Origin: Rhizobiaceae bacterium
GTDB taxonomy: Bacteria > Pseudomonadota > Alphaproteobacteria > Rhizobiales > Rhizobiaceae
DNA: 64,000 bases
Direction of reading: 5' to 3'
Assembly (NCBI GenBank): GCA_029233925.1
Contig: JARGOX010000017.1
Location: 62,001 to 126,000, forward strand
The position numbers and the translations under genes were made by a program. The first letter of the stretch is position 1. Each line of letters opens with the position of its first letter. The notes beneath the pieces are model-generated. The model did not search any database. It was given only the letters and a program-made list of their open reading frames with translations, and was not told where the DNA came from. This document shows, piece by piece, positions 7,805 through 24,689 of the stretch.

Positions 7805-7860
7805 GATGCATTGATGCGGTAAATGCAATGCATCACAAGTTCCAATTTTCGCAATGCATT
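7805..7860. promoter_or_regulatory. Probable LysR operator: inverted repeat plus third half-site
   Basis: GATGCATTG at 7805-7813 is the exact inverse of CAATGCATC at 7826-7834, separated by 12 bp. A further direct copy, CAATGCATT, is at 7852-7860, 26 bp downstream of the second arm. The array lies between the divergent LysR gene and the VOC gene, ending 42 bp before the VOC start. Two-site occupancy (recognition site plus activation site) is normal for LysR activators. Assignment to this LysR protein is inferred from position. Confidence 0.6.
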
Positions 7861-7902
7861 CACCTCCGGTAGCATCATGAAAAATGACTGGAGGTTGGTT
7901 GA

Positions 7903-9227: not shown

Positions 9228-9255
9228 TTCGGCCGACTTGAACAAAGGTAAGCCT

Positions 9256-10035
9256 ATGGCGCGCAAGATAATCGATCTGTCTGTGACCCTCACAGATGCC
9301 ATCAAATCCGATCCGCCGGGTCTTGGACCCGAAATTTCCTATTTGGACCATGGTGAGGGCGCCAAAGAGTTTCAGCAGATGTTCAGCATTCCTGACGGCG
9401 CTTTGCGGGATAATGCAGGCCCTGCAGCAGAGCGGTGCAACATCACCACGCACAATGGCACACACATGGATGCGCCCTGGCACTATCATCCGACGATGAA
9501 TGGCGGTGAGCGGGCGATTACCATTGATGAAGTTCCGCTTGAATGGTGTTTTGGTCCCGGCGTCAAACTGGATTTCCGCGACCGGCCGAACGGCCATACA
9601 ATCACTTCGGCCGAGGTGGCGGAGGAACTCAAGCGCATTGGCCACGAACTGCAGCCAGGCAACATCGTTCTGGTCAACACCGCTGCCGGTACGCGCTATG
9701 GTCAGGATGACTATCTTGCTTCCGGATGCGGCATGGGACGCGAGGCCACCCTATACCTGACAGAGCGCGGCGTGCGTGTTTGTGGAACAGATGCCTGGAG
9801 CTGGGATCCGCCTTTGATGGGTCAGGCCGCCAGAGCCCGTGAGACGGGCGACTGGTCGGTTTTCTGGGAAGGGCACAAGGCCGGGGCAGACAGTATTTAT
9901 TGTCACATGGAAAAACTGGCAAATCTGCACTTGCTGCCGTCCACCGGTTTTGAAGTCATAGCGTTGCCTGTAAAGGTCGCCAAAGGCTCTGCTGGATGGT
10001 GCCGACCGGTGGCACTGATCGACGCCGCTTCATGA
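9256..10035 (+). CDS. Cyclase / kynurenine formamidase-like metal hydrolase
   Basis: 259 residues starting at the ATG of MARKIIDLS (9256), which has AAAGG upstream; an extended frame starts at 9136 inside the Rieske gene and is less likely. The family signature HNGTHMDAPWHY, a metal-binding HxGTHxDxPxH motif, lies near residue 75. Such enzymes hydrolyse amides (N-formylkynurenine), isatin or lactone-type rings using Zn or Mn. It sits between the Rieske protein and the TRAP permease on one transcript, which suggests hydrolysis of a ring-opened amide or a cyclic intermediate. The wide family makes precise assignment impossible. Confidence 0.88.
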   Translation: MARKIIDLSVTLTDAIKSDPPGLGPEISYLDHGEGAKEFQQMFSIPDGALRDNAGPAAERCNITTHNGTHMDAPWHYHPTMNGGERAITIDEVPLEWCFGPGVKLDFRDRPNGHTITSAEVAEELKRIGHELQPGNIVLVNTAAGTRYGQDDYLASGCGMGREATLYLTERGVRVCGTDAWSWDPPLMGQAARARETGDWSVFWEGHKAGADSIYCHMEKLANLHLLPSTGFEVIALPVKVAKGSAGWCRPVALIDAAS

Positions 10036-10053
10036 CGTGCACCGGGAGGAACC

Positions 10054-11979
10054 ATGACACGCAATACCAACGATAAAGGACTGCTCATCTTCTGGGCTGA
10101 GAAAATATCCGGGATCATTTCCGTTGCGGCGATTGCTGGTATTCTGCTGGGCGCGATGATCATCGTGGTAGATGTTACCGGTCGATGGCTTTTTGGTATC
10201 TCGGTTGTCGCCCTGAACGAAATGATGTCCTCCATTTTTGCAATGGCAATCGCTGCGACATTTCCCGCTGGAGCGGCTGCGCGCGTCCACTTGAAGGTGG
10301 ATTTGCTGGGTCACCTTACCGGTGCTAAGCTCACGGCGTGGCTGAACTTTATCGGGTCATTCCTGCTTTTCCTGTTTTTTGCCGTGCTCGCCTGGCGGAT
10401 ATTCGGCCTGTCAGGACGCTATTTCGATCAGGGGCGTGCGACACCGCTTCTCGAATGGCCCTTGTGGCCCATATACTTTGTTGTCTCAATATCAATGGCC
10501 GCGACAGCCCTCGTTCAGATCGTGCATATGGTCAACGACTTTAAAGCCGCCCGCCAGGTATCCGACAGGGCCGGTTCTCATCCCGCTGTTGTTTTGGCGA
10601 TAGCCCTGCTGGCTGGCATTGTCGGCGGCGGGCTGGGTTGGGCATTGTGGGACCTGCAGGGCTATTCGGCCTTTGTCGGGGAAAATCCGGGTAGTGCCGT
10701 TCTAATCGCATTTGCCGTCTTGTGGCTTGGCGTTCTGGCACAATTGCCCTTGGCAACCGTCACCGCATTTATCGGTATTTGTGGAACGCTGGCCTATGTG
10801 GGGACATCGGCGTCAGCCAATACATTTTCCGGCGATGCGATGAAATTTCTGCGCGATGACCAGGTGGTCACTTTGCCGCTGTTCCTGATCATGGGTGCGT
10901 TTTCCGTCGCTGCAGGTGTTTCGGAAGACCTGTTCCGGCTTGGAAACGCTGTTCTGGGGAGGTTCCGCGGTGGGCTCGCCTATGCCACGATTGCCGGCTG
11001 TGCGGGTTTTGGCGCTGTCTGCGGTAGTTCCATAGCCACATCGGCCACCTTCGGACGTATGGCGCTGCCGTCCATGGCCAAGCTGGGTTATTCGCAATCC
11101 CTGTCGACGGCCTCCGTTGCTGCTGGAGGAACGCTTGGTGCGCTGGTGCCTCCATCTGGTGCGATCATCATGTTTGCATTGCTCACCGAAGAGTCCATCG
11201 GCGCCTTGTTCATGGCCGCAATGATACCTGCGGTACTGGCCATCCTGCTGTATTTTTGCGCGGTTTTTGCCGTCACCCGCCTTTATCCCGCTTCCGTGCC
11301 GAATGTGCTGGACAAGGTACCCGGTGAATTCCTTGGCGCCCTGCGCGGCGCATTGCCGGTCGTGATCATGTTCACCATCGTGATTGGCGGCCTCTACGGC
11401 GGTCTATTCACGGCGACGGAAAGCGCCGCGGTCGGCGCTGTTGCCGCATTTCTTCTGGCGCTGGGACGCGGCAAGCTCAGCCGTTCTTCCATCATGAGCG
11501 TGTTTTCCCAGACAACGGCGACAACCGCCATGTTGTATGCGCTGATCTTTGGCGGGTTGATGTTTTCCTTCTACGTCAATCTGGGGCAGACGCCTGACAT
11601 GGTCAGCGCATGGATTGCATCTCTGGACGCAAGACCGATCGTGATTCTGGCCGTGCTGATTGTCATTTACCTGCTGCTCGGCTCGGTAATGGACAGTTTC
11701 GGCGTCATGATCATCACCGTTCCGGTCGTCACCCCACTGATCCTTGGCCTGGGATATGACATGTTGTTCTGGGGCGTTTTGATGCTGGTCGTCGTCGAGA
11801 TTGGGATGATTACACCGCCTTTTGGGATGAATCTCTTCATCATCAAGAGCCTTGATCCGAACGTTAAACTGTCAACCGTGATGAAAGGCGTCGTTCCCTT
11901 CATCGTCGCCGATGTCATCAAAATTGTCTTGCTGGTGAGCATCCCGGCATTGTCGCTTTGGCTGCCTTCAACCATGTAG
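10054..11979 (+). CDS. TRAP transporter permease, DctQ-DctM fusion
   Basis: 641 residues of very hydrophobic sequence. The first about 170 residues have four membrane segments and the DctQ feature (DVTGRWLFGISVVALNEM); from about residue 200 the protein is a DctM large permease with LPLFLIMGAFSVAAGV, GSSIATSATFGRMALPSMAK, GGTLGALVPPSGAIIMFALL and EIGMITPPFGMNLFIIKSL. The complex imports organic acids across the inner membrane using the Na+ gradient and a periplasmic binding protein. It follows the cyclase gene by 18 bp, so uptake and catabolism share a transcript. The likely binding protein is encoded convergently at 12321-13328. Confidence 0.93.
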   Translation: MTRNTNDKGLLIFWAEKISGIISVAAIAGILLGAMIIVVDVTGRWLFGISVVALNEMMSSIFAMAIAATFPAGAAARVHLKVDLLGHLTGAKLTAWLNFIGSFLLFLFFAVLAWRIFGLSGRYFDQGRATPLLEWPLWPIYFVVSISMAATALVQIVHMVNDFKAARQVSDRAGSHPAVVLAIALLAGIVGGGLGWALWDLQGYSAFVGENPGSAVLIAFAVLWLGVLAQLPLATVTAFIGICGTLAYVGTSASANTFSGDAMKFLRDDQVVTLPLFLIMGAFSVAAGVSEDLFRLGNAVLGRFRGGLAYATIAGCAGFGAVCGSSIATSATFGRMALPSMAKLGYSQSLSTASVAAGGTLGALVPPSGAIIMFALLTEESIGALFMAAMIPAVLAILLYFCAVFAVTRLYPASVPNVLDKVPGEFLGALRGALPVVIMFTIVIGGLYGGLFTATESAAVGAVAAFLLALGRGKLSRSSIMSVFSQTTATTAMLYALIFGGLMFSFYVNLGQTPDMVSAWIASLDARPIVILAVLIVIYLLLGSVMDSFGVMIITVPVVTPLILGLGYDMLFWGVLMLVVVEIGMITPPFGMNLFIIKSLDPNVKLSTVMKGVVPFIVADVIKIVLLVSIPALSLWLPSTM

Positions 11980-12320: not shown

Positions 12321-13328
12321 CTATTCAGCGTCTGCTTTGGTCACCTGCTCGCGCCACAGTTCGATCAGCTCGGCACCGCCGGGAACCCGTGCGGCATATC
12401 CCTTGGAAAGGGTTTCACCGACGCGTTCCTTCAACTCGGCCATTCCTTCCTCCGAGATCTTGTTGAATGTATGCCCTTCCTTGGACATGACAAAGCCTTT
12501 CGAGTCCGCTTCCCACTGATCGACCTTGTCACCAACTTCGCGGGCGAGTTCACAGCCTGAATTTGCAGTCAGGACCGCCTTTGCTTCTGCTGAAAGCCCA
12601 TCAAAACGGGCGCGTGTCATGAAGGCCAGGCCAGTTGCTCCACCCAACGGGACCTCCAGATGATCGGAGGTTACCTCATTCAGGCGGAAGCCGGGAAAGG
12701 CCGTGTAGCTCATGAATGTGCCGTCTGCCGTGCCGCGTTGCAGGGCCTGGTACTGATCCTGAATGTTCACAGACAAAGGCGTGCCGCCATAGGCCTGAAT
12801 TATGCCTGCGGCAGCTGGGCTTTGGGTCGTTATCTTCTTGCCGGCAATATCTGCCATGGATGTCAGCGGAGTCCCATTGAGATGCGCGCTGACCTGCGGG
12901 AAGGGAACGATGAGCAACGGTACGAAGTCATCCCATTCATCGCCGAGATCACCATTTTCGAGCATCCGGCAAAAGGCAACGGCGGCGGCCGCAGAAGAGC
13001 CCTCTATCAGAGGAATGGTTGAAACAAGCGAGCGCGGGAAACGTCCCGGTGCAGCCACCGGCATGCCCCATACGATCTGTACAACGTCATCATCCAGACG
13101 GTCGAGAAATGTCCCCGGATTGACCAGCATCTGTCCGTGACGCATGTCGATTTGAAGCGCATCACCCCCTTCGGCATTCACCTTTTCGACCCATGGTGTG
13201 AAGATGCGCTTCACAATGGGGTGCTGTTCAACATTTCCACTGCCAAAAATCAGTGTCTCAGCTGAAGCCATTGCCGGTGCAAGCACGGTTGTCGTGGCCA
13301 GCAAACCTGCCAGAATTCGCTTTTTCAT
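12321..13328 (-). CDS. TRAP transporter substrate-binding protein, DctP family
   Basis: 335 residues from the ATG at 13328, which is preceded by GGGAGGACGAT; the frame is open further upstream but the signal peptide MKKRILAGLLATTTVLAPAM with cleavage after ASA fixes this start. DctP-family segments include LTSMADIAGKKI, QALQRGTADGTFMSY and GGATGLAFMTRARFDGL. The protein binds an organic acid in the periplasm for delivery to the DctQM permease. It is convergent with, and immediately beyond, the fused permease at 10054-11979, so the two are almost certainly partners although transcribed from different promoters. Monocistronic, with its own terminator. Confidence 0.92.
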   Translation of the reverse strand: MKKRILAGLLATTTVLAPAMASAETLIFGSGNVEQHPIVKRIFTPWVEKVNAEGGDALQIDMRHGQMLVNPGTFLDRLDDDVVQIVWGMPVAAPGRFPRSLVSTIPLIEGSSAAAAVAFCRMLENGDLGDEWDDFVPLLIVPFPQVSAHLNGTPLTSMADIAGKKITTQSPAAAGIIQAYGGTPLSVNIQDQYQALQRGTADGTFMSYTAFPGFRLNEVTSDHLEVPLGGATGLAFMTRARFDGLSAEAKAVLTANSGCELAREVGDKVDQWEADSKGFVMSKEGHTFNKISEEGMAELKERVGETLSKGYAARVPGGAELIELWREQVTKADAE

Positions 13329-13986
13329 ATCGTCCTCCCGAAACAGATGAGCCAACCCGGCCCCTTGTCGCATCGTAGAGACGAGGCAGGTGTTTGAACA
13401 TTTGATTGATTGAATTGCAGGCATTGAGTTGATGAATACCTTTTGCGGGGCTGCAATCATTATATGCCACCGGTCGGATCGACCGGCGATCGGCCTGCAG
13501 CGGGCGCTTGATCCCAATGGCGATCAGAACGGCCTCTCGTATGAAATCCCTTGTCGCATGGGGTTCGACCACACAGGGCCATTGCGGCGCATCCTTCTGG
13601 TAGAACGGATGTCCAAACGAGATCGGCGTTTTCTGCCTGCGGCGTGCCACAGGCCAGCAAGGAAACGCAATCTGATCTCATGGCCATTACCGGACCCGAG
13701 GCATTGAGGAATGAAAATAGTGGAAGGTTTTGCGCCGGATTTTCACAAACAACGAATGATCGTGCTCAGCAAGCGCTGGTCAGGCAGATAGAACCCGCTC
13801 CCGGTCAGTCTCATGCCGTCGCGACAATGCCATTGGTCTGCCGGTTTTCCTCCCGGTCGCATAGCGCCACCACGATGCGTGGGTTCGGCGGGTGCACTGT
13901 CTTTTCCCGCCGACATAATCACCCGAACCTTGCCTGCTTGCTCCCGGTATCCGGTTCGGGTTGGATTCAGTGTGTTTCATCCGGAT
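13329..13986. other. Gene-poor gap upstream of DctP
   Basis: About 650 bp without a convincing gene on either strand. It must hold the DctP promoter. A short palindrome, CCGGTCG-GAT-CGACCGG, lies at 13470-13486; it could be an operator or a hairpin. ORFs crossing this stretch lack ribosome-binding sites, domains or natural codon use. Confidence 0.55.
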
Positions 13987-14886
13987 TCAATATTGCTTCA
14001 GGTCTTCGCCGATCGATATCTCACCGGAGAAGCGACTGGCGATCCGGGCCACATAATCCGGCGCGGTTTGCGGCGTCGCCAGTCCGGGCGGAAGATGTGT
14101 GGCGACCACGTGTCTGGCGCCGGCGATTGTGGCCAGGTCGCCAAGCTGCTCTGCGCTCAGATGATGGCCAGCGATGTGTTCACGGATTTTCTGGATCTGC
14201 GCTTCCGGCACGTCTGGATTTCGTGAGCGCACCATGCGCATGGTCAGATCTGCATCCATCATCTCGCCGACCAGCAGATCGACACCCTGCGCCAGCGCTT
14301 CCACGGCCTTGCATTCGCCCGTATCTCCAGTCAAAAAGATGCTGCGGTCAGCCAGATCAAATCGGAAGGACAAGGAAAGGAAGCCTTCGGTTCCAGCCTC
14401 GTTTTCCTGACGGTAGTGGGTGTTTTCGCAGTTTCTGACCGTCAGGCCGTCCAGTTCGATCACATCACCGGGCACAATTTCCTGCACAATGACAAAATCC
14501 TCGACTTTCGGCATGCTCTGCCCCGGCACACCGAAGCCGATCGCATTGGGAACGGCGCAGGCAGCGATGAGGCCATCCACGATCTGCCGGGTTCCAGGTG
14601 GCCCGTAAACCGTTAGTGGTGTGCGACGCATGGTCATCATGTTTATGCCGAAACAGGCGAACAGGCTTCCGATATGGTCAAAGTGATGGTGGGTCAGAAA
14701 TATTTCGGCAACGTCCCTGAATTCAACGCCGGCGCGCTTCAGTTGGCCCATTGCCCCTTCTCCGCAATCGATCAGAACAGGTTTGCTGCCGTTCATCAGC
14801 AAATGGGCTGGCTGGGAGCGCAGCGGGTTTTGCATGGGGCCGCCGCCAGTTCCAAGCGTGGTGAAAGTGGAGGGGTTCGGTGCCAT
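13987..14886 (-). CDS. Metallo-beta-lactamase-fold hydrolase, RNase Z/arylsulfatase-like
   Basis: 299 residues, cytosolic (no signal peptide). The metal site is canonical: LTHHHFDHIGS (HxHxDH), FLTGDTGE for the bridging Asp, and VVATHLPP near the C-terminus for the last His. The N-terminal TLGTGGGP and LIDCGEG pattern is that of the RNase Z / AtsA branch. The start ATG at 14886 has GAGGA 7-8 bp upstream. It is downstream of the ThDP-ALDH fusion, separated by a 309-bp gap with a hairpin, so it may be the distal gene of that operon or transcribed alone. Family roles include lactone, ester and phosphodiester hydrolysis. Confidence 0.88.
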   Translation of the reverse strand: MAPNPSTFTTLGTGGGPMQNPLRSQPAHLLMNGSKPVLIDCGEGAMGQLKRAGVEFRDVAEIFLTHHHFDHIGSLFACFGINMMTMRRTPLTVYGPPGTRQIVDGLIAACAVPNAIGFGVPGQSMPKVEDFVIVQEIVPGDVIELDGLTVRNCENTHYRQENEAGTEGFLSLSFRFDLADRSIFLTGDTGECKAVEALAQGVDLLVGEMMDADLTMRMVRSRNPDVPEAQIQKIREHIAGHHLSAEQLGDLATIAGARHVVATHLPPGLATPQTAPDYVARIASRFSGEISIGEDLKQY

Positions 14887-15195
14887 GGAATTTTCCTCTT
14901 GTTGTGCACGGTCTCAAGCAGTTCGACAAGCCTTGAACGCCGCCAGTGTGACTGTCTGCAAACTGGAGGTGGCGTGAATGGATTGCCGTAATGCCGTTGT
15001 AGCCAAACACCGGACATCACCATAATAGAATTGTTCAATACCTTGCATTCATCCGGCAAATGCAGGCGGTCAGTCAGCAGGCCTGATTTCAAAGAATTTA
15101 CCTGACCGGTGTCGCATTTTTTTCTCATTCAACTGGCGGCCGCACCTGACCTGCGCCAGGTGCGGCAACCGGTATGAGTGGCGGCGATGCGCGTT
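14887..15195. other. Gap with hairpin after the ThDP-ALDH gene
   Basis: No gene seen. A perfect 10-bp inverted repeat GCCGCACCTG / CAGGTGCGGC with an 8-nt loop is at 15139-15166, starting 30 bp after the stop of the fused gene. No T-run follows it on the minus strand, so it is better seen as a processing or attenuating stem-loop than as a classical terminator. Confidence 0.55.
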
Positions 15196-18100
15196 CTATT
15201 TCTGAGCGCTTAGGACCTGAACCCTGGTGTATTCTCTCAAACCTTCCGGACCGAACTCGACGCCAAAGCCTGATTGCTTGACGCCGCCCATGGGCACGCC
15301 TGGATTGAGCACGGCGTGGCGGTTGACCCACATGGTGCCGGCGTCCATTTGCAAGGCGACCCGTTTGGCCTCTTCCAGATCATCTCCCCATGCCGAGGCG
15401 CCCAGCCCCACTTCGAGGCTGTTGGCCATGGCCAGAGCCTCTTCAACCGTCTTGTATTTGATTACCGGAATCACCGGACCAAACTGTTCTTCGGTGACGA
15501 CGCGCATATCGTGGGTCGCATCGGCAATGAGGGTCAATTCGTGAAAATAGCCGTCGCCCGGCATGGCATTGCCGCCGACAATTATGCGCGCGCCTTTGGC
15601 CTTGGCATCAGCGACCAGATCCTTGACCTTGTTGAACTGCATTACATTGGACAGGGGACCTAGAATATTGGCTTCGTTCATGCCATCGCCCATTTTCACA
15701 TCGGCCAGATAATCGGCAAAGAGCTGTATGGTGCGCTCATAGTCATCCTCATGGACATAGAGCCGTTTCAGGCAGGAGCAGGTCTGGCCGGAATTGATGA
15801 AGGTACCCCAGAACAATCCTTCGATCTTGCCTTCCATATCGGTGCCCGGCAGAACAATGCCGGCATCGTTGCCGCCAAGCTCAAGAGTGAGGCGTTTCAA
15901 TGTGGGGCCGGCGCTGGACATGATCCTTCGACCCGTCGGGACGGAACCGGTAAAGACGATCTTGGCGATGTCGGGATGGGTGGACATGGCATCGCCCACT
16001 TCCGCGTCGCCGGTGACAACGTTCAACACGCCTGCAGGCAATATCTGGTTGAAAAGTTCGACCATTTTCAGCGTTGACAAAGGTGTATAGGGCGACGGCT
16101 TCATGACCACCGTACACCCGGCCCGCAGTGCCGGCATGATGTGCCATACGGCGATCATCAACGGCCAGTTCCACGGCGTGATGGATGCGACGACACCAAC
16201 CGGCCGGCGGTGTATTTCGACAAGCTCGGCATCGTTGTTGATAAGCGTTTCCACCTCCAGCTTGAGAGCCGCAGTGCTGCGGGTCCAGCCAATGCAGCCA
16301 TCAAGTTCAAAGTTTGCCCCAAGGCCTGACTGGGTCTTGCCCTGTTCGCGGGTGATCAGCTTGCTGAGTTCCTCACGGTGGACTTCCAACAGGTCGCCGA
16401 GTTTGCGAATAACCTCAATGCGGCTCTCATCGGCCAATGCTGACCAGGCAGGCAAGGCCTCCTTCGCGGCGGCCACAGCCTTGTCCAGATCACCAACGGA
16501 TGCCTGCGGACATTTGGCCAGCAGCTTGCCTGTTGCCGGATTGATGACGTCGAAAGTTTCCTTTTTTGCAACGCCTTCACCATTGATGGTCAATACAAAT
16601 TCACCCATCATCATTTCCCCTTTTTGCATCAGTTCTCCGCCCATTGCCTGCATCCATGCTGGTCTGGTTGATCCCATGACCGGTGGCGCCGGATGGATCA
16701 GGCTCCATTGTGACCGTTCAGACCCGGTTTCGATTGGCACCTCGATGATGACGGGACCGTCTTCCTCGAAACCCTGCGTGATGGCCTGTTTCAAATCCTC
16801 CGGGTTGCTGACCCGCACACCCTTTGCGCCGAAGGCCTTCGCCAGTTCGACAAAATCGGGATTGACGAGATCCGCGCCAAGGCGACGCTCGTGATAGTTC
16901 CAGTTCTGGTCGCGCCTGACATTGCCATAGGCGTTGTTGTTGAAAATCACCGTGACAAGATTGATGCCGTATTGAACGGCGGTTGCCAGTTCCTGCACGC
17001 CGAACATGAAACCGCCATCACCACAGACAGCCACAACCGGCTTGTCCGGATTGCCGACCTTGACCCCCAGGGCCGTGTGGAAACCAAACCCCAGATTGTC
17101 CTGATAACCGCAGGTTACATATTGCCGGGGCGCATAGACCGGGAACATGATGCGGGCGCTGAAACCGATCTGGCTGATTTCCTCTACAAAAAATCCGTCA
17201 TCGGGTAATGCCTGACGAATGGCCTTCAGATAATCATGCTGGGGCTGGATGCGTTCCATCCTGGTGTGCGCAAGCGCCCGGTATTCTTCCAGTTCAGCGG
17301 CGCGCGGACCACGCGGGAAAATCCGTGTTTCAAGCTGATGCATGAGCGCGCTGACGCCCTCGGCTGCATCAGCCACAATGCCGACATCGGGTTTGAGGCG
17401 GACAAATTCCGTCGGGTCGATATCGATGCGAATGGTTTTCATGCCGGTAGGCTGCCACTGCCAGCGCATATGCGTCAGCTCCAGCCGCGAGCCGATCCCG
17501 ATCAGGCAGTCACATTTGGCAAAATAGCCATGGGCTTCGGGAGACAACAGGCTGAGCGGATGTTTGTTGCTGAGGATCCCCTTGCCGGACCGATGGGCTG
17601 TTACTGGCGCCTGCAGCATTTCAGCCAGCGCCTGAACCTCGGCGCTCGCTTCATTGGCGCCTGCGCCGACAAGGATCATCGGGTGCCGCGCCTGGGCGAT
17701 CATCTTTGCCGCTGCGATCAACTTGCCCGGATCGGGTTTCGGCGCCGGTTCAGCCGTTCTGTTGACTTCTTCCAGTTCCACCGGTGCACTTTGCCCAAAC
17801 ACATCCCAGGGCGCTTCAATCGCCGTTGGACGGATGCGCTTGTTGGTCATCTGTCGAAAACCCTCAGCGACCATTTTCGGGGCTTCGCTGGCGTGATTGA
17901 TGCGGTCTGCCCATCCGGTAAAACCGCGCATGGTGCCAAGCTGGTCGGGCAACTCGTGCAATTGCCCGCGACCCTGACCGATGAGATGGCTCATGATGTT
18001 GCCGGTGATCATCATGACCGGCGTGTTGGCGCCATAGGCCGTGCAAAGGGCAGCGCTGGCGTTGAGCATGCCGGGGCCGGGGACCACCGTAAACACGCCC

Positions 18101-18324
18101 GTCTTGCCGGTCGACTTTGCGTAGCCATAGGCCATGTATCCCGCGCCCTGCTCGTGGCGCGTGGTGATGAACCGGACGTCGTCTTCGCGGGCAATGGCAT
18201 CATTGAAGTCATACATATGGGCGCCAGGAATGCCGAAAATCGTGTCAACACCATGGTGTCGCAGTGAACGCACGATGGCTTCACCGGTTGTCATATGGCC
18301 GGACTTGGGCAGGCTTTCAGTCAT
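15196..18324 (-). CDS. Fused ThDP-dependent 2-oxoacid decarboxylase-like enzyme and aldehyde dehydrogenase
   Basis: A single uninterrupted frame of 1,042 residues. Residues 1 to about 565 are a ThDP enzyme: catalytic Glu58 in RHEQGAGYMAYGYA, and the ThDP/Mg motif Gly435-Asp436-Gly437 to Asn462-Asn463. Residues 571-1042 are a complete ALDH: PWNWP, FTGSVPTGRR, general base Glu815 in LELGGND, nucleophile Cys849 in GQTCSC. The expected chemistry is decarboxylation of a 2-oxoacid to an aldehyde, then NAD(P)-linked oxidation to the acid. The ATG at 18324 is chosen; its ribosome-binding site is weak, and the gene follows TctA by 37 bp. A strong AAAAAGGGG stands just before an internal ATG triplet (16608-16614), so free ALDH may also be made. 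See also the findings. Confidence 0.88.
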   Translation of the reverse strand: MTESLPKSGHMTTGEAIVRSLRHHGVDTIFGIPGAHMYDFNDAIAREDDVRFITTRHEQGAGYMAYGYAKSTGKTGVFTVVPGPGMLNASAALCTAYGANTPVMMITGNIMSHLIGQGRGQLHELPDQLGTMRGFTGWADRINHASEAPKMVAEGFRQMTNKRIRPTAIEAPWDVFGQSAPVELEEVNRTAEPAPKPDPGKLIAAAKMIAQARHPMILVGAGANEASAEVQALAEMLQAPVTAHRSGKGILSNKHPLSLLSPEAHGYFAKCDCLIGIGSRLELTHMRWQWQPTGMKTIRIDIDPTEFVRLKPDVGIVADAAEGVSALMHQLETRIFPRGPRAAELEEYRALAHTRMERIQPQHDYLKAIRQALPDDGFFVEEISQIGFSARIMFPVYAPRQYVTCGYQDNLGFGFHTALGVKVGNPDKPVVAVCGDGGFMFGVQELATAVQYGINLVTVIFNNNAYGNVRRDQNWNYHERRLGADLVNPDFVELAKAFGAKGVRVSNPEDLKQAITQGFEEDGPVIIEVPIETGSERSQWSLIHPAPPVMGSTRPAWMQAMGGELMQKGEMMMGEFVLTINGEGVAKKETFDVINPATGKLLAKCPQASVGDLDKAVAAAKEALPAWSALADESRIEVIRKLGDLLEVHREELSKLITREQGKTQSGLGANFELDGCIGWTRSTAALKLEVETLINNDAELVEIHRRPVGVVASITPWNWPLMIAVWHIMPALRAGCTVVMKPSPYTPLSTLKMVELFNQILPAGVLNVVTGDAEVGDAMSTHPDIAKIVFTGSVPTGRRIMSSAGPTLKRLTLELGGNDAGIVLPGTDMEGKIEGLFWGTFINSGQTCSCLKRLYVHEDDYERTIQLFADYLADVKMGDGMNEANILGPLSNVMQFNKVKDLVADAKAKGARIIVGGNAMPGDGYFHELTLIADATHDMRVVTEEQFGPVIPVIKYKTVEEALAMANSLEVGLGASAWGDDLEEAKRVALQMDAGTMWVNRHAVLNPGVPMGGVKQSGFGVEFGPEGLREYTRVQVLSAQK
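16608..16625 (-). promoter_or_regulatory. Internal ribosome-binding site and ATG triplet at the ThDP/ALDH junction
   Basis: On the minus strand AAAAAGGGG (16625-16617) precedes three consecutive ATG codons. The third, at 16608, lies 8 bp from the GGGG and begins MGEFVLTINGEG, a normal ALDH N-terminus giving 470 residues. This suggests that the ALDH was an independent cistron and can perhaps still be translated alone. Confidence 0.6.
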
Positions 18325-18361
18325 GGGATAATCCGTTCTTGTTCGCAATTTTTGTTCCGGG

Positions 18362-19873
18362 TCAGGAATTTTGTTCTTTCTCTACTGCAGCGTTGCGCTT
18401 GAGAAACCAGAAGAAGGAAACGACTGACAAAATCAGCAGGGCAACGGCAACTGGCGACTGATACGCTTGCGTCAGGTCTCCATTGGTCAAAGCCAGTGAC
18501 TGGGCGATGGATTTTTCAAATCGCGGTCCCAGAAAAAATGCGATTATGAAGATGACCAGGGAGTAGCCGAAGCTCGACAATAGATAGCCCAGCACCGCAA
18601 AAATCAGCATGATGGCCACGCCGAACAGGCCGCTGGTCGCCATGGCAACGCCGACGAAACACAGCAGAAGCGCTGAGGAGAAAATGATCGATTCTGGTGC
18701 TGAGACGACCTTTACCCACAGGCGCAGGCCAATCTGACCGACCCACAAATTGAGAAAATTGGCCATCAGCATGGCGCCGAAAAGGCCATAGACCAGGCGG
18801 CCCTGATTTTCGAACAGCAGGGGACCTGGTTGCATGCCATGGATCATGAAAGCGCTGACGATCAGTGCAGCACCGACGCTTCCAGGAATGCCCAGCGTCA
18901 GCAGCGGAATGAGATTGGCGCCCATCACAGCCGAATTGGCCGATTCTGAAGCAGCAATGCCATGAAGATTGCCCTTGCCAAAACTGGAAGGATCTTTCGA
19001 ACTGGCCTTGGCAAAGGCATAGGACATGAATGCCGCTGCGGTCGATCCGATACCGGGAAGCGCGCCAAGGATCGTGCCGATCACCGCACCGCGCAACATG
19101 GTAAAGCGACATCCCCAGTACTCTGCCCAGGTCACACGATCTTGATCAGGGTCGTCGGATTCGACAAATTCAATCGCCGGCCTGACCCGTCCAAAGGATT
19201 CCGACATGCGGTGCAGGATTTCCGAGATGGCAAGCACGCCGATGGCGACCGATGGCAGCGGCAACCCGTCAAAAAGATCCCAATAGCCGAAGATCAGCCG
19301 TGGCGTGAAATTTTCCGGGTCGCTGCCGATACAGGCAACGAGCAGGCCCAGTACCGCAGCAATAAGTCCCTTTATCAGTGAACTTCCCATCAGTCCGGCA
19401 AGCACTGAAAAGGTGAATATCATCAAGGCGGCGATCTCGATCGGCCCCATCTTAAGCGCAAGCACGGCCAGTGGAGCGGATACGGTGATCAGCACAATAT
19501 CGCTGAACGTATCGCCGGTGATGGACGAAAACAGCGCCATCTTTGTTGCCTTGAGAGGTTTGCCCTGCTTGGCAAGCGGATAGCCGTCCAGCGCGGTGGC
19601 GGCGGCGTCTGGCGTGCCGGGCGTGTTCATCAGGATGGCCGGAACGGCGCCGCCGACAAGTCCGCCCTTGTTGACACCGACCAGAAAGGAGATGGCGACA
19701 ATCGGACTGAGCGCGAAGGTGAAGGGAATGGCGATTGCCATGGCCATGATGGGCCCAATTCCCGGTACAGCCCCGACAAATTGTCCAAGAACGACCCCGA
19801 AAAGGACGAACAGGAGATTGGTCAGGGAGAACGCGTCTGAAAAACCGGCCAGAATGATCGAAAGGTCAACCAA
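18362..19873 (-). CDS. tctA: Tripartite tricarboxylate transporter, large permease TctA
   Basis: 503 residues, the usual TctA length, with about 11-12 membrane segments. Family hallmarks are GVVLGQFVGAVPGIGPIMAM near the N-terminus, LVGVNKGGLVGGAVPAILMN, NTPGTPDAAATALDGYPLAK and the repeat-like GTILGALPGIGSTAAAFMSY in the second half. It forms the solute channel with TctB and takes substrate from the TctC binding protein. It is 12 bp downstream of TctB and 37 bp upstream of the fused decarboxylase-dehydrogenase, so the import system and the enzymes are on one transcript. Confidence 0.95.
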   Translation of the reverse strand: MVDLSIILAGFSDAFSLTNLLFVLFGVVLGQFVGAVPGIGPIMAMAIAIPFTFALSPIVAISFLVGVNKGGLVGGAVPAILMNTPGTPDAAATALDGYPLAKQGKPLKATKMALFSSITGDTFSDIVLITVSAPLAVLALKMGPIEIAALMIFTFSVLAGLMGSSLIKGLIAAVLGLLVACIGSDPENFTPRLIFGYWDLFDGLPLPSVAIGVLAISEILHRMSESFGRVRPAIEFVESDDPDQDRVTWAEYWGCRFTMLRGAVIGTILGALPGIGSTAAAFMSYAFAKASSKDPSSFGKGNLHGIAASESANSAVMGANLIPLLTLGIPGSVGAALIVSAFMIHGMQPGPLLFENQGRLVYGLFGAMLMANFLNLWVGQIGLRLWVKVVSAPESIIFSSALLLCFVGVAMATSGLFGVAIMLIFAVLGYLLSSFGYSLVIFIIAFFLGPRFEKSIAQSLALTNGDLTQAYQSPVAVALLILSVVSFFWFLKRNAAVEKEQNS

Positions 19874-19885
19874 TGGAATGCTCCG

Positions 19886-20311
19886 TCATGGCAAGGCCCT
19901 GCCAAGGACTTGGACAACCAAGAACCAGATAAGCGCCGGCATGGCCACGACACCTGCGACAAGCCATATCGGGCGTCGTTCGCCGATCATCAACATGATT
20001 GCCAACGCCACGGCCGGGCCGACATAGACGAAGCCAAACAACGACATGGCGTAGATTCCGGCCGTCAGGATGAAAACATAGGCGGCCGTGATTGCGAAGC
20101 TGCGCATGGTTTGCGTGCTATGGAGCGTCGGCTTGAAAACCAGCAGGGCGCCACACAGCGCCAGAATGAGAGAGAGAGAATTGGGCATCATATCCGGCGA
20201 GATATTGCCATCCGTCACAGACTCGACGTAGTTGGGAATAATCAGGAAATACAGTGCAAGGCCGAGCGCCAAAAACAATGTACCCGACACCCTATCGGCA
20301 GTAAACCGCAT
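19886..20311 (-). CDS. tctB: Tripartite tricarboxylate transporter, small permease TctB
   Basis: 141 residues with four predicted membrane segments (for example TLFLALGLALYFLIIPNYV and LSLILALCGALLVFKP). The start at 20311 (MRFTADRVSG) is supported by AAGGGG upstream and by the usual short cytoplasmic N-terminus of TctB; a longer frame to 20407 would run into the TctC region. TctB is poorly conserved between species but its place between TctC and TctA is diagnostic. Confidence 0.9.
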   Translation of the reverse strand: MRFTADRVSGTLFLALGLALYFLIIPNYVESVTDGNISPDMMPNSLSLILALCGALLVFKPTLHSTQTMRSFAITAAYVFILTAGIYAMSLFGFVYVGPAVALAIMLMIGERRPIWLVAGVVAMPALIWFLVVQVLGRALP

Positions 20312-20366
20312 GCTGTTTCCCCTTGATAGAGAGCGCCCCGCGCAAAGACACGGGGCGATTTGATTG

Positions 20367-21314
20367 CTATTGGGCGAAAAGAATCTTCGCATTGTCCAGA
20401 CCGTCAAACATCATTTTGCGCGTTCCATCGGTTCCCATGTTCAAGGGTGATCCGTTTGTGGCATTCTTGACGATTTTCGCGACTGCGGGTGATTGCACTG
20501 CTGCATCAATGGCTGCGGCAATGGCTGCCACCGCTGCCGGGTCCGTTCCCTTCCTGGCTGCCAGGAAGAAGACAGGTTCGACATAGGCATTGACGCCGGA
20601 CTCGATGAAGGTCTTCGCATCAGGTGCGTAGCTCAAACGAGACTGGTTTGCGCTGGCAATGACTTTCATGTCGCCAGATTCAAGATAGGGCAATTGCTCA
20701 CCCGAACCAAAGCCTGCCAACACCTGTCCGCCGAGAATCAGTTTCATGACTTCCGCGCCGCCATCGGCCGTGACCAGATCAAATTTGGCGTCTGTCGTTT
20801 TCATGGTCTGCTTCATCATCAGTATCTGCGGTGGCGCCATGATGGCAACCGGCATGGTCGACTTTTCCTTGGCGTAGGCAACCATGCCCTCAAGGTCGTC
20901 AAAGGGCGCGTCCTTGCTGGCAACCAGTGCCAATTCGGCTTTTGCCACTGTGCCCAGATAATCAAAGCTGTCCAGGTCGAATGGCAGTTGGTCACCGCGT
21001 TGCACCAGCTGCACCATTACGGGAATGCTCACACCCATGCCGATGGTCTTGCCATTGGCAGGCATTTGCGAGATGCCGGTAAACATGGCAACGCCACCAG
21101 CGCCCGGCTTGTTCTCGACAACGATGGTCCAGCCGGTTTGCTTTTCCATCTCATTGGCAAGGACACGGCCCATTGTGTCAGTCGATCCGCCCGCACCGAA
21201 TCCGATCTGGATCTTCAGCGGGCCATCCGGCTTCCAGTCTGCGGCAAGAGATGGTGAGATCATGGCGATCATGGCTGTGGCAGCGAGCGCCAGTAATTTT
21301 GATTTGATAGGCAT
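20367..21314 (-). CDS. tctC: Tripartite tricarboxylate transporter substrate-binding protein (TctC/Bug family)
   Basis: 315 residues from the ATG at 21314 (GGAGGAAACAAT upstream). Signal peptide MPIKSKLLALAATAMIAMIS with cleavage near SLAA. The Bug-family substrate loop IQIGFGAGGSTDTMGRVLAN is present, followed by WTIVVENKPGAGGVAMF, both typical contact regions for carboxylates. It binds its ligand in the periplasm for the TctAB permease encoded just downstream. Given the enzymes on the transcript, a 2-hydroxy- or 2-oxo-carboxylate is a reasonable ligand, but the pocket cannot be read from sequence alone. Confidence 0.94.
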   Translation of the reverse strand: MPIKSKLLALAATAMIAMISPSLAADWKPDGPLKIQIGFGAGGSTDTMGRVLANEMEKQTGWTIVVENKPGAGGVAMFTGISQMPANGKTIGMGVSIPVMVQLVQRGDQLPFDLDSFDYLGTVAKAELALVASKDAPFDDLEGMVAYAKEKSTMPVAIMAPPQILMMKQTMKTTDAKFDLVTADGGAEVMKLILGGQVLAGFGSGEQLPYLESGDMKVIASANQSRLSYAPDAKTFIESGVNAYVEPVFFLAARKGTDPAAVAAIAAAIDAAVQSPAVAKIVKNATNGSPLNMGTDGTRKMMFDGLDNAKILFAQ

Positions 21315-21411
21315 ATTGTTTCCTCCAGAAGTTGTTATCAGATTTTCTTTGGGCAGTTGCAGTAGGCGCTCCACAGCAAGCCTTGCTGTGGAGCGCAGGT
21401 GATGCTTCTAT

Positions 21412-22377
21412 TTATTTGTTCTTTTCGACTTCCAGTTTTTTGACAGCCCTGTCCCTGAGGCTGGAAACCTGTTGAAGCAGACCATCGGGATTGACGAAGA
21501 CATTTGGCTCGCCGGGCTTGCGCTCAGCCAGTTTCAGCCGGCCTTCTTCCAAGTTGTTGGAAAAACCGTGGGTGGTCAGATGAACCTGCACATTTTCTCC
21601 CTTGTCTTCGACAAGTGCGCGCACACGATCAACACTGTCAATGTAGGCTTCCACCTGAGGCGGGCCTTCGATGGCGTTGAGACCAAGGCCGCCGATGGTT
21701 ATGGCGCGATAGGTGTCGCTGCCACCCTTGACATCAAAGAGGTAGGACGCTGTTCCCCAGGAATGGCCGGGCGTTGCAATCACTTCGATTTTCATGCCGC
21801 CCAATTCGATGACATCGCCATCTTCCAGAATCTTTTGCGGCTCGATCATGGGCCAGGGGCGACCACCCTGAGCGGCCGCTGAGGCTTCTGCCGCCTCATC
21901 CCATCCCGCCTGTGTCATGGCGAAGGTGGCATTGGGCAGCCATTTTTGAAGTTCCGCTGCCCCGCCAACGTGGTCGAAATGACCACGGGTGATCAAGACA
22001 TATTTGATGTCTGACAGATCAGTGCCGGTGCTCTTGATGTTGTCGACCAATTGCTGGGTGAATGGTCCGTAGACCGTATCGATCAAAAAGCTGCCGTCAT
22101 CCGTATGAATCAGCCAGGACGAAACCCAGCAAATCCCGACATAGTCGACATTGTCGAAAGGCTTCCAGGGCTCCACTTTCTGGGCGGATGGCGTGTTGAG
22201 CCATTTGCCAAGATCCGTCGGCATTTTCCCGCTTCTGCCAAATTCAATGAATTTGCCCATGATCGGTTTCGATGGGCAACCTTCGAACAATTCGGCAGAG
22301 GCCATTGTAGTCATCCCGGTGGTGGCAAAGCCCAAGGTGGCTGCCAAGCAGGCGATTCTTGACAGATACTGAAACAT
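21412..22377 (-). CDS. Exported metallo-beta-lactamase-fold protein with altered first metal ligand
   Basis: 321 residues with a signal peptide (MFQYLSRIACLAATLGFATT, cleavage near ASA). Start 22377 follows GGAGGAGAGTTAGG. The fold is class B3-like: LIDTVYGPFTQQLVDNI, then TRGHFDHVGGA, VIATPGHSWGTASYLF and VHLTTHGFSNN. The HxHxDH motif here reads Arg131-Gly-His133-Phe-Asp135-His136, so the first zinc ligand is Arg. Some B3 relatives (GOB) tolerate Gln there, but Arg is unusual. It lies between the flavoprotein and TctC genes of the catabolic operon, so a periplasmic esterase or lactonase that prepares the imported acid is more plausible than a resistance role. Confidence 0.87.
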   Translation of the reverse strand: MFQYLSRIACLAATLGFATTGMTTMASAELFEGCPSKPIMGKFIEFGRSGKMPTDLGKWLNTPSAQKVEPWKPFDNVDYVGICWVSSWLIHTDDGSFLIDTVYGPFTQQLVDNIKSTGTDLSDIKYVLITRGHFDHVGGAAELQKWLPNATFAMTQAGWDEAAEASAAAQGGRPWPMIEPQKILEDGDVIELGGMKIEVIATPGHSWGTASYLFDVKGGSDTYRAITIGGLGLNAIEGPPQVEAYIDSVDRVRALVEDKGENVQVHLTTHGFSNNLEEGRLKLAERKPGEPNVFVNPDGLLQQVSSLRDRAVKKLEVEKNK

Positions 22378-22423
22378 CCTAACTCTCCTCCCAAGGCGCG
22401 CCCTCGGACGCATTATAGCTTTT

Positions 22424-23887
22424 TCAGACTTCAGGAACCAGTTTTCCCGGGTTCATGATGTTGTTGGGGTCCAGGGCCGTTTTGATGGCGCGCATGACAG
22501 CCAGTTGAGATGGCTCCTTGAGCATCGTCATCACGGCCAGTTTGCTTTGCCCAATTCCGTGCTCCGCGCTGAATGATCCGTTCAGCCTGCCAAGCAGGTC
22601 AAATGCCGCCTCCTTTGCCGCCTCCAGAGGCAGACTGGCCCACACCCGGTTTGGGGCGGGTGCCAGGGCGTAATGAAGATTTCCATCGCCCAGGTGCCCC
22701 ACCGTTATGGGTTGAAACCCCATCTTCGCCGAGGCCTGATCCATTTCGCCGACAAAATCGGCGACCCTGGACAGCGGCAGGGAGATATCAAGATGATAAG
22801 CCGGTCCATTCCCGGTGATCGCTTCCAGGATGGATTCGCGCATGCGCCAAAGGTCTGCGCGTTGTTTTTCCGACTGAGCGATCATGGCGTCCAGAACCAG
22901 TCCGGTTTCCATCAGTTCGCTCAGAAGCGTCATGACCTCATCGCCCAGTTGTGTGCTGCCATCCGGCAACTCCCTTGCGTCAATGGCCCGGCTTGATGCG
23001 ACCTCGACCAGAATGCCGCATCCCGTGTGATCAGCCAGGGGGCGTTTTATGTCAGGAAACTGGGAACAAATGACGTCAATGGCGTGCTGCGGCATATACT
23101 CAAAAGCTTCAACGGCGCTGCCGGTATGGTCCTGCAAGCGGTTTAGAACTTCGGTCGCTGCCGAAAGGGAGGCGACGGATAAAAATGCGGTTACCCGATT
23201 GGCCGGTTGCCGAAACATTTTGAACACGGCCGCCGTTATGACGCCAAGTGTGCCCTCCGCACCGATGAGCATATCCTTGATGTCGTAGCCTGTATTGTCT
23301 TTGCGCAAGCCGGTCAGGGCATTGATGACAGAACCGTCGGGCATGACGGCCTCGATGCCCAGACAAAGCTCGCGTGTATTGCCGTAGCGCACCACATTCG
23401 ACCCGCCGGCATTTGTTGAAAGGTTGCCGCCGACAGTGCAGGTGCCCTTTGCGCCAAACATCAATGGAAAAATCAGACCGTGTTCCAGCGCTTCCAGTTG
23501 CAGGGTTTCCAGAACCATGCCCGCTTCCACAACAATTGTGCGCCCGGCAGGGTCGAAATTTCTCAGGGCATTCATCCGTGTCAGGGACAGCACGACTGAA
23601 CGCTTGCCGTCAATCGGCACGCCGCCGCCACACAGGCCCGTGCCACCGCCCTGCGGAACCACAGCGATACGATTGGCATTGCAATATTGCACGATTTGAG
23701 AGACCTGGCTGGTTGAATTCGGCCGCACGACCGCCAGTGCTTCCGAGGAGAATTGTCCTGTCCAGTCGGTCAGGTAACCTGCCATATCGTGGGTTTCATG
23801 CAGCAAATTGGCAGAGCCGACAATGGCACGAAAATGATCCCGTGCATCATCTGCGATCGTTTTCCTGATCAACTCCACCTGGCTCAA
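22424..23887 (-). CDS. FAD-linked D-2-hydroxyacid dehydrogenase (GlcD / D-lactate / D2HGDH type)
   Basis: 487 residues in the vanillyl-alcohol-oxidase fold. The FAD-binding half contains VVPQGGGTGLCGGGVP and GNLSTNAGGSNVVRYGNTRE; the C-terminal half has HLGDGNLHYALAP (catalytic and metal-binding His), SAEHGIGQSK and DPNNIMNPGK. Relatives oxidise D-lactate, D-2-hydroxyglutarate or glycolate to the 2-oxoacid and pass electrons to quinone, cytochrome or ETF. A TTG at 23887 preceded by GGGAGAGAATAT is the start. It is the first gene of the operon ending with the ThDP-ALDH fusion, so it would supply the decarboxylase with 2-oxoacid. Confidence 0.92.
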   Translation of the reverse strand: MSQVELIRKTIADDARDHFRAIVGSANLLHETHDMAGYLTDWTGQFSSEALAVVRPNSTSQVSQIVQYCNANRIAVVPQGGGTGLCGGGVPIDGKRSVVLSLTRMNALRNFDPAGRTIVVEAGMVLETLQLEALEHGLIFPLMFGAKGTCTVGGNLSTNAGGSNVVRYGNTRELCLGIEAVMPDGSVINALTGLRKDNTGYDIKDMLIGAEGTLGVITAAVFKMFRQPANRVTAFLSVASLSAATEVLNRLQDHTGSAVEAFEYMPQHAIDVICSQFPDIKRPLADHTGCGILVEVASSRAIDARELPDGSTQLGDEVMTLLSELMETGLVLDAMIAQSEKQRADLWRMRESILEAITGNGPAYHLDISLPLSRVADFVGEMDQASAKMGFQPITVGHLGDGNLHYALAPAPNRVWASLPLEAAKEAAFDLLGRLNGSFSAEHGIGQSKLAVMTMLKEPSQLAVMRAIKTALDPNNIMNPGKLVPEV

Positions 23888-23940
23888 ATATTCTCTCCCT
23901 TCAGATGAGGCATGTCATCGTGCTCCCCAATCCGATAAAC

Positions 23941-23957
23941 TAACATGTTACATGTAA
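23941..23957. promoter_or_regulatory. Overlapping palindromes, probable GntR operator
   Basis: TAACATGTTA (23941-23950) and TTACATGTAA (23948-23957) are two perfect 10-bp palindromes sharing three bases. They lie 54 bp before the flavoprotein start (23887) and 43 bp before the GntR start (24000), in the only gap between these divergent genes. Position and symmetry fit an operator of the adjacent FCD-type GntR protein. Confidence 0.6.
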
Positions 23958-23999
23958 GAATAAATTGTCAAGTCTCAGGTCCGATGTTATCCAGTGGGC

Positions 24000-24689
24000 A
24001 TGGACAGGACTCTCAAGAAAATCGAACCAGCCATTTCGCTGACCGAGGAAACGGCAGATCGCCTCCGCGACGCCATTATCTGGGGCGAGTTGCCTCTGGG
24101 GTGCAAGCTGTCGGAGCAACGTCTCGCCGACATGCTTGGGGTGAGTCGCTCACCCGTCAGGGATGCCCTGGCGACACTTCAATCGGAAGGTCTGGTCAAA
24201 GTATCCCCCAAACGCGGGACCTTTGTCTTCACGCCTGATCTCAAGGTGGTGGACGACCTGTGTGAACACCGGTGCATCCTTGAGACAGCGTCGCTGCGCA
24301 AGGCAATTTCATCAAGTGGAGACGTGCTTTTGCAGGGACTGGGCATGGCTGTTGCCACCATGGAAAAGGCCGTTGCACAAATAGATCGGCCAGGGTTCAC
24401 CAAGGGCGATATTGAATTTCACAACACGATCATCATATGTGGCGGCAATCGCTCCATTGCGGCAACCTACCGCCGTACGATCAGCCCACTGATGGCATTG
24501 CGGACGCATCTTTTTGTGAGCATGAACGATGCGCTGGATCGATCCATGGACGAACATCTGGAATTGATCGAAGCGTGCAGGCGTGGGCAGGCCGATGAAG
24601 CCGCAGCCCTTGTAGAGAATCATATCTATCATTTGTCCGAGGCCTATCGCGCTGCTCTGGCAAAAGAGGCGATGAAGAAGGCCCCATAG
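24000..24689 (+). CDS. GntR-family regulator, FCD/FadR subfamily
   Basis: 229 residues. N-terminal winged helix: LTEETADRLRDAIIWGELPL, GCKLSEQRLADMLGVSRSPV, RDALATLQSEGLVKVSP. The C-terminal part is the all-helical FCD ligand domain (EHRCILETASLRKAI, IEFHNTIIICGGNRSI, HLELIEACRRGQADEAAALV) with the His/Asp pattern that usually holds a metal and a carboxylate ligand. ATG 24000 is used; a GTG two codons earlier is possible. It is divergent from the TTT/ThDP-ALDH operon and is the obvious candidate to repress it until a carboxylate effector is bound. Confidence 0.93.
   Translation: MDRTLKKIEPAISLTEETADRLRDAIIWGELPLGCKLSEQRLADMLGVSRSPVRDALATLQSEGLVKVSPKRGTFVFTPDLKVVDDLCEHRCILETASLRKAISSSGDVLLQGLGMAVATMEKAVAQIDRPGFTKGDIEFHNTIIICGGNRSIAATYRRTISPLMALRTHLFVSMNDALDRSMDEHLELIEACRRGQADEAAALVENHIYHLSEAYRAALAKEAMKKAP

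Follow-up and report, generated by a model that had tools for sequence, protein, structure and literature searches.

A row of six minus-strand genes in a 64,000-nucleotide stretch of a Rhizobiaceae bacterium (contig JARGOX010000017.1, positions 62,001 to 126,000; hereafter the window, meaning the whole stretch analysed) can be read as a peripheral catabolic unit for an aryl-lactate (3-aryl-2-hydroxypropanoate), probably in its D form, controlled by a divergently encoded GntR regulator, a reading that we hold to be rather probable. The operon looks like an offshoot of aromatic catabolism rather than a mandelate pathway. Its TctCBA importer would take up the hydroxyacid, a GlcD-type flavoenzyme would oxidise the aryl-lactate to an aryl-pyruvate, the thiamine diphosphate (ThDP)-dependent half of a fusion protein would decarboxylate this to an aryl-acetaldehyde, and the tethered aldehyde dehydrogenase (ALDH) half would yield the aryl-acetate, so that the reactive aldehyde would be made and consumed within one polypeptide. 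The product would then enter a central route encoded elsewhere, namely the phenylacetyl-CoA route for a bare ring, or homoprotocatechuate meta-cleavage for a ring with 3,4-dihydroxylation, whether original or acquired. An exported protein of the metallo-beta-lactamase (MBL) fold may, at a guess, free the hydroxyacid from an ester outside the membrane, which is the weakest step of the proposal. The catalytic activities, the substrate class, transport and regulation are predictions from gene content and genomic context.

Organization of the gene row

An earlier reading made from the sequence alone (the sequence-only reading) had described the minus-strand order GlcD-type flavoprotein, exported metallo-hydrolase, TctC-B-A and ThDP/ALDH fusion, facing an FCD-type GntR gene. 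Open frames, Pfam domains and spacing bear this out. Every gene is present at the coordinates and on the strand given below, with an open frame (open reading frame list, translations and Pfam), and all domain scores of gntR and the six minus-strand genes exceed the Pfam gathering scores.

23994..24689, plus strand, FCD-subfamily GntR regulator (PF00392 + PF07729), divergent from the operon
23944..23954, unstranded, putative operator CATGTTACATG between gntR and glcD
22424..23887, minus strand, GlcD-type FAD-dependent 2-hydroxyacid dehydrogenase, predicted aryl-lactate dehydrogenase (PF01565, FAD_binding_4; PF02913, FAD-oxidase_C)
21412..22413, minus strand, exported MBL-fold hydrolase (PF00753, Lactamase_B); likelier start 22377
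20367..21374, minus strand, TctC-type periplasmic binding protein (PF03401); likelier start 21314
19886..20407, minus strand, TctB small membrane subunit (PF07331); likelier start 20311
18362..19873, minus strand, TctA large permease (PF01970)
15196..18348, minus strand, ThDP-dependent decarboxylase/ALDH fusion of 1050 amino acids (TPP_enzyme N/M/C + Aldedh; PRK08266); likelier start 18294
16606..16677, minus strand, linker between the two enzymes, with AAAAGGGGAA then ATGATGATG, placed by the sequence, unfused relatives and a low-confidence stretch of the structural model
15139..15166, unstranded, perfect 10-bp hairpin past the fusion stop, without a T run

The regulator combines a GntR winged helix with an FCD domain, and TctC, TctB and TctA are adjacent and all above their cut-offs, as in a tripartite tricarboxylate transporter (TTT). 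Successive frames of the row are separated by 10, 37, −41, 12 and 13 nt when the first possible starts are used; with the likelier starts, picked by visual inspection of start codons and purine-rich sites and by comparison with relatives, the gaps become about 46, 97, 55, 12 and 67 nt. The hairpin begins 29 nt past the fusion stop and may mark the end of the unit.

The decarboxylase subfamily and its neighbours

Compared with the NCBIfam models, the ThDP half belongs to PRK08266 (NF006122; 811 bits, cut-off 571), as do all four relatives scanned (830–891 bits). This is a curated subfamily without an assigned function ('hypothetical protein'). By sequence, the nearest solved chains of the ThDP half are acetolactate synthases, as might be expected if it were an acetolactate-synthase-like ligase and the fusion not a decarboxylase-dehydrogenase at all. 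We regard this as extremely unlikely: the score with the acetolactate synthase model, 337 bits, lies far below the cut-off of 538, an ALDH, needless for a ligase, is tethered or adjacent to the ThDP enzyme in the window, L031, L043, L047, L052, L092, L094 and L096, and aromatic aminotransferase genes neighbour the relatives.

These neighbours were surveyed in the best 80 of 183 loci from a scan of genome contigs, comprising 60 loci with a ThDP relative (at least 55% identity and at least 60% coverage; not independent of one another), two with a cut ThDP gene (L087 and L097) and 18 with a relative of the ALDH half only. An aromatic aminotransferase gene lies directly before the ThDP gene on the same strand in 30 of the 60 ThDP loci, the alignment ends being −13 to 68 nt apart. 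At least two different homoprotocatechuate (Hpa) genes were found in 22, every one of which holds both an HpaE-like and an HpaD-like gene. One or the other kind of neighbour is present in 49 of the 60 loci and neither in any of the 18 ALDH-only control loci, each at least 11 kb long. These controls replaced an earlier ALDH-only set that included 4.4-kb loci and gave 1/42 (L097, with its cut ThDP gene), since short loci cannot show neighbours. The aminotransferase was named through L063 (PRK09257, 500 bits, cut-off 377). Among the Hpa references, HpaD_Fe, HpaE, HpaH and HpaR (L052) and HpaD (L094) exceed the NCBIfam cut-offs; HpaG and HpaI of L052 fall below theirs, and one reference gene, which we take to be HpaF, has no match. 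In a ThDP tree from which a genome's duplicate loci were dropped (as any row with an internal stop would have been), the neighbour labels cluster by clade, with 17 changes versus a shuffled mean of 31.2; the window sits on a long branch and its placement is unsure. The aminotransferase and Hpa genes would bracket one chemistry, aryl-pyruvate in and aryl-acetate out.

On plasmid pRL10 of Rhizobium johnstonii (L063, 8767–11614), the aromatic aminotransferase gene is followed by that of the PRK08266 decarboxylase, the same pair as in the 30 loci. At a guess, this pair might serve the breakdown of 3,4-dihydroxyphenylalanine (DOPA) or aromatic amino acids.

The sequence-only reading had proposed a three-step unit (2-hydroxyacid oxidation, 2-oxoacid decarboxylation and aldehyde oxidation) modelled on mandelate. 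The three steps gain support from relatives, where the same kinds of gene recur with a shared putative operator. Mandelate itself fares less well. A mandelate-type pathway with substituted parts (mandelate to benzoylformate, benzaldehyde and benzoate) would have the identical three-step chemistry, and the Pfam domains of its C and D steps are present; we nevertheless consider it very unlikely. The ThDP half is a PRK08266 protein, the benzoylformate decarboxylase family PRK07092 does not figure among its 25 best-matching families out of 104, the neighbours of its relatives handle C6-C2 acids and C6-C3 amino and oxo acids, and benzoylformate decarboxylase–ALDH fusions occur elsewhere in the family. 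A C6-C3 aryl-lactate appears to fit better than C6-C2 mandelate because the relatives sit with aromatic aminotransferase or Hpa genes, and aryl lactates were already among the acids that the earlier reading had proposed to test.

The dehydrogenase, the importer and modular relatives

Because a GlcD-type dehydrogenase stands where relatives have an aminotransferase, the entering substrate would be a 2-hydroxyacid, hence an aryl-lactate. GlcD relatives of at least 60% identity occur together with the ThDP gene in L031, L032, L033 (the same as L046), L043, L052, L094 and L096; L087 combines such a GlcD with ALDH and a cut ThDP gene. According to one study, mouse LDHD, a GlcD-family enzyme, oxidises D-phenyllactate (D-2-hydroxy-3-phenylpropionate) with a KM of 337 µM (PMC10589216). 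A GlcD-anchored search at class level retrieved 8/385 genomes at E ≤ 1e-120, including the window's own, the others being 44–47% identical, and yielded no independent neighbour count.

The importer also has relatives near aromatic genes. The window TctA is 76% identical to a TctA on a Phaeobacter inhibens plasmid, 8–10 kb from pcaQ and pobA, and 63% identical to one on a P. gallaeciensis plasmid, where a kynureninase gene is adjacent and a 3-hydroxyanthranilate dioxygenase gene is near. The TctC proteins on these two Phaeobacter plasmids are 54% and 47% identical to that of the window.

A neighbourhood search for the flavoprotein, TctCBA and the fusion together had been suggested. The GlcD, ThDP and ALDH genes do recur together, but unfused and with tripartite ATP-independent periplasmic (TRAP) or ATP-binding cassette (ABC) importers. 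A cassette of GntR, GlcD, MBL, TRAP, ALDH and ThDP genes is found in L031, L043 and L087 (the ThDP gene of the last being cut by the contig end), and L094 and L096 combine GntR, GlcD, TRAP, ALDH and ThDP genes with a more distant MBL (34–37%); in these five loci TRAP takes the place of Tct. L033, the same as L046, carries GntR-GlcD-ThDP beside a whole Hpa set. L052 has ALDH, ThDP and GlcD genes with a TRAP set some 3 kb further on (by eye and tblastn) and no recognised GntR. Two Bradyrhizobium loci, L089 and L095 (L128 is taken as the same place as L095), hold the MBL, an ABC importer of the branched-chain type and a GlcD-type enzyme from a different branch (30–31%) within a ThDP-Hpa locus (Pfam: L089). 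We infer that the importer (TTT, TRAP or ABC) has been swapped around a constant task.

The regulator and a putative operator

The GntR regulators of the relatives' cassettes are 47–65% identical to that of the window. The palindrome CATGTNACATG has one site in the window (0.14 expected), at 23944–23954 between gntR and glcD, and occurs at only two places in the whole 6.1-Mb host genome. Nine genomes have a recognisable divergent gntR-glcD pair (that of the window, L031, L032, L033 = L046, L043, L087, L094, L096 and L047), and in all nine the palindrome lies exact or near between the two genes: six have exact CATGTNACATG, L043 and L087 have CATGTACCATG, and L047 has CATGTTACATA, one base off. 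L094 and L096 carry a second exact CATGTNACATG shortly before DctP of the TRAP-ALDH-ThDP operon, which suggests that this operon is also tied to the GntR regulator. With a looser pattern the loci yielded 21 matches, versus the 6 that mononucleotide shuffles predict; gntR-glcD or DctP sites account for 15 of the 21, and three of these 15 repeat places already counted (one in L006, two in L033). The looser-pattern scan gave no operator match in the host's own Hpa locus.

The ThDP-ALDH fusion

The fusion is a single frame of 1050 residues without an internal stop, with TPP_enzyme N/M/C at residues 19–537 and Aldedh at 595–1044 (Pfam). The ThDP part stops at the same point as its unfused relatives (IHPAPP), and some 25 linker residues lead to the ALDH start. 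An AlphaFold2 model from a 24-row alignment has two folded parts, with a predicted local distance difference test score (pLDDT) below 50 for residues 542–580 (mean pLDDT 77.9, predicted template modelling score 0.50). In the linker DNA, AAAAGGGGAA stands immediately 5' of ATGATGATG at the ALDH start, so that the ALDH might also be translated separately from a start of its own.

In genome G146 (L031), ThDP and ALDH follow in the same gene order, unfused, with TGA and 25 nt between them; in L043, L047, L052, L092, L094 and L096 the ALDH gene precedes the ThDP gene. The fusion looks like the result of a stop codon lost between neighbouring genes, the old spacer now being translated, which would be the simplest history. 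No close fusion was found in 247 genomes of the family with the three best candidates scored per genome, nor in the seven other genomes of the genus; the family survey gives a lower bound, and one further full-length match, in G101, is at most a candidate.

The ThDP-ALDH architecture as such was considered as unique to the window, and this was rejected once three further fusions, full-length and open, turned up among the family genomes sampled: benzoylformate decarboxylase–ALDH proteins of 1034, 1083 and 1055 amino acids (L121, L122 and L123), whose ThDP halves pass PRK07092 with 714, 667 and 672 bits (cut-off 493). TRAP genes are close to each of them, and L121 also has a gene for an FMN-dependent dehydrogenase (FMN_dh) some 4 kb away. 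These loci are perhaps mandelate-type units with a fused C-D enzyme. Since they are only 29–30% identical to the window fusion, the architecture probably arose more than once.

Elsewhere in the host genome, a second neighbouring ThDP-ALDH pair, unfused, lies on contig C17 (L126, 6832–10119). Its ThDP protein is acetolactate-synthase-like and below the cut-offs of the 25 families shown.

The exported metallo-hydrolase

The hydrolase has a hydrophobic N-terminus (by eye) and comes near the CAR group of subclass B3 metallo-beta-lactamases, reaching 381 bits with CAR_gen_B3 (cut-off 500), although the genes around it in the window are of a catabolic kind. We take HxHxDH to be the zinc motif of this subclass. 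The window copy reads TRGHFDH, versus THGHFDH in eight relatives of 51–71% identity; the first His, kept in all ten relatives aligned, is replaced by Arg, the sole Arg among the nine compared at 51% or more. An MBL-anchored search retrieved 3/397 genomes of the order, including the window's, with five candidates scored per genome. No catabolic neighbour was recognised by eye in L129, one of the two other MBL-bearing genomes of the order, which speaks against the MBL being part of the operon's pathway in every case.

Among 72,556 plasmids, a relative of the hydrolase is present on one, from Paracoccus marcusii. There (L130, 14938–23744) the MBL relative stands in a row with another MBL, a TRAP importer of the TAXI type, a sulfatase-like gene and a SulP transporter, which might point to a sulfated substrate for that plasmid's genes.

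Possible downstream routes in the host genome

The 6.1-Mb host genome, in 43 contigs, contains six neighbouring HpaF-E-D-G-H-I-like genes (L127, 11744–17290, contig C3), 54–76% identical to the reference set, HpaE being above its cut-off (781 versus 638). PaaA/PaaC (phenylacetyl-CoA) and HgmA (homogentisate) domains are also present; with all three kinds of gene in the genome, more than one ring pattern of the substrate would fit.

Evidence against an aryl-lactate route and alternative substrates

Several observations weigh against an aryl-lactate route. The 60 ThDP loci are dominated by related genomes (27 are titled Rhizobium), and 11 of them have neither kind of neighbour: six of the 11 are shorter than 15 kb; L044, L049, L050, L071, L090, L093, L099 and L100, for the most part short, come from metagenome assemblies, unlike L091, L092 and L096. 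The flavoenzyme reaches 277 bits with TIGR00387 glcD (cut-off 567.9) and, by sequence, is a GlcD-type protein and not glycolate oxidase GlcD itself. For LDHD, the same study describes D-phenyllactate as a less efficient substrate than D-lactate (PMC10589216). The 11 solved TctC relatives include terephthalate-binding proteins, none being named for aryl-lactate. The second-best NCBIfam match of the ALDH half, the phenylacetaldehyde dehydrogenase StyD, favours the route, but its cut-off is missed.

The host's Hpa genes lie on another contig, not beside the operon, and its genome has no match to PF03241, the domain of the HpaB-type 4-hydroxyphenylacetate 3-hydroxylase, so a 4-hydroxylated substrate would need another hydroxylase. 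One of another type may be encoded, PF08028 having 15 matches in the genome that do not decide the matter; a substrate already 3,4-dihydroxylated would fit as well. HpaB was tried as a discriminator between 4-hydroxy- and 3,4-dihydroxy-substrates and dropped, as it gave no separation: PF03241 is present in only 8 of 27 relatives' genomes searched (1/6 with an MBL of at least 50% identity in the locus and 7/21 others). An HpaF-E-D-G-H-I set without HpaB would be explained by a modular pathway for plant aryl-lactate esters, in which the periplasmic MBL-fold esterase would split depsides of the rosmarinic acid type, an interchangeable TTT, TRAP or ABC importer would take up (3,4-dihydroxyphenyl)lactate, and the GlcD, PRK08266 and ALDH enzymes would deliver 3,4-dihydroxyphenylacetate to Hpa meta-cleavage. 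In this extended form the proposal is distinctly unlikely.

Among 17 ThDP sequences compared, the ThDP half of the window has diverged furthest (mean identity 62.9% versus 66–74%), with 17 private changes, including H62T and K145G, at columns invariant in the 16 others; the next most, 13, are in L031. Its substrate may therefore differ from that of its relatives, and the drift weakens any transfer of substrate from them. It also lends something to a non-aromatic route in which oxidase, decarboxylase and ALDH would act in the same succession, for instance on a branched hydroxyacid, on D-2-hydroxyglutarate or on an acid of sulfo or sugar origin. Small aliphatic acids are frequent substrates of both GlcD-type enzymes and TTT importers. 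The best solved chains of the flavoenzyme, by sequence, are 3pm9 and the mitochondrial D-2-hydroxyglutarate dehydrogenase 6lpn, the next-best decarboxylase model for the ThDP half, below its cut-off, is 5-guanidino-2-oxopentanoate decarboxylase, and a 49% identical GlcD on a Paracoccus aestuarii plasmid adjoins uxuA and a sugar kinase gene. Set against this are the aromatic neighbours of the ThDP relatives and the nearest TctCBA genes, which were found near aromatic genes; we judge a non-aromatic substrate unlikely.

With its apparent lost stop codon, changed zinc motif and private ThDP changes, the window copy has, to judge by its sequence, drifted. In the seven other genomes of the genus the operon was not found, the best match to the ThDP half being 40% identical. 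A decaying copy, no longer fully functional in this strain and with the same features reflecting relaxed constraint, nonetheless seems hardly probable at all: all frames are open and closely spaced, the operator is kept, and motifs that we take to be catalytic are present in the translations (RHEQ and GDG...NN of ThDP enzymes, GQTC and LELGG of ALDH, and GHLGDGNLH and SAEHGIG of the GlcD-type enzyme).

Other genes in the window

Beyond the fusion, the minus strand continues with two genes set off by gaps of 309 and 469 nt. They encode an RNase-Z-like MBL (13987–14886) and a lone DctP binding protein (12321–13517), and a DctQM gene (10054–11979) is convergent with them. The RNase-Z-like MBL was considered as a member of the operon and rejected, the 309-nt gap with its hairpin arguing against it; second MBLs, weakly similar (24–28%), come after the first MBL in L082 and L130.

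A second catabolic island spans 2725–11979 and comprises genes for a fumarylacetoacetate-hydrolase-type protein, a cupin, an alpha/beta hydrolase, an FAD monooxygenase, a LysR regulator, a VOC protein, a cyclase and TRAP DctQM. It recurs in Flavimaricola marinus (L047), 67–90% identical and with order and orientation kept except for the cupin gene, where it directly adjoins that genome's ALDH-ThDP pair.

Comparison with known systems

The sequence-only reading knew of no described operon of this composition, and a search of the open-access literature aimed at the pathway or the fusion agrees: none was recognised among the papers listed, nor were the gene combination, the substrate class, a PRK08266-type fusion or the operator seen there. 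If the aryl-lactate proposal is right, it would assign a role to a decarboxylase subfamily that is curated, though without a name, and is seen in many Rhizobium loci beside an aromatic aminotransferase, and would predict a route of aryl-lactate use by alphaproteobacteria, with a named regulator and its likely operator. It would also offer a naturally fused decarboxylase and dehydrogenase, in which a reactive aldehyde may be channelled.

The chemistry would be of a known, mandelate-like or Ehrlich-like kind. In the mandelate pathway of Pseudomonas putida, MdlB, MdlC and MdlD are a flavoenzyme, a ThDP decarboxylase and an ALDH, and the operon shares this passage from 2-hydroxyacid through 2-oxoacid and aldehyde to acid. 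However, its flavoenzyme is an FAD GlcD-type protein (PF01565 + PF02913) and not an FMN-dependent mandelate dehydrogenase (PF01070), its ThDP half is of another subfamily, C and D are fused, a TTT importer stands in the row, and the relatives point to aryl-lactates. A Pfam scan of the operon genes, with the rest of the genome not searched for a racemase, revealed no mandelate racemase domain. The benzoylformate decarboxylase–ALDH fusions L121–L123 resemble the window fusion in architecture and in standing beside importer genes, and differ in a ThDP half that passes PRK07092.

Hpa degradation is linked to the operon through the Hpa genes near the ThDP gene in 22/60 loci and the cluster in the host's own genome, but the operon would be an upstream feeder from aryl-lactates, separated from the host's Hpa genes by contig and accompanied by no PF03241 hydroxylase. 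Ehrlich-type routes and the arginine AruH-AruI route proceed by transamination and then 2-oxoacid decarboxylation. They employ a decarboxylase of the same wider group, and the Rhizobium relative follows an aromatic aminotransferase gene, whereas in the operon a hydroxyacid dehydrogenase, in place of a transaminase, would supply the oxoacid.

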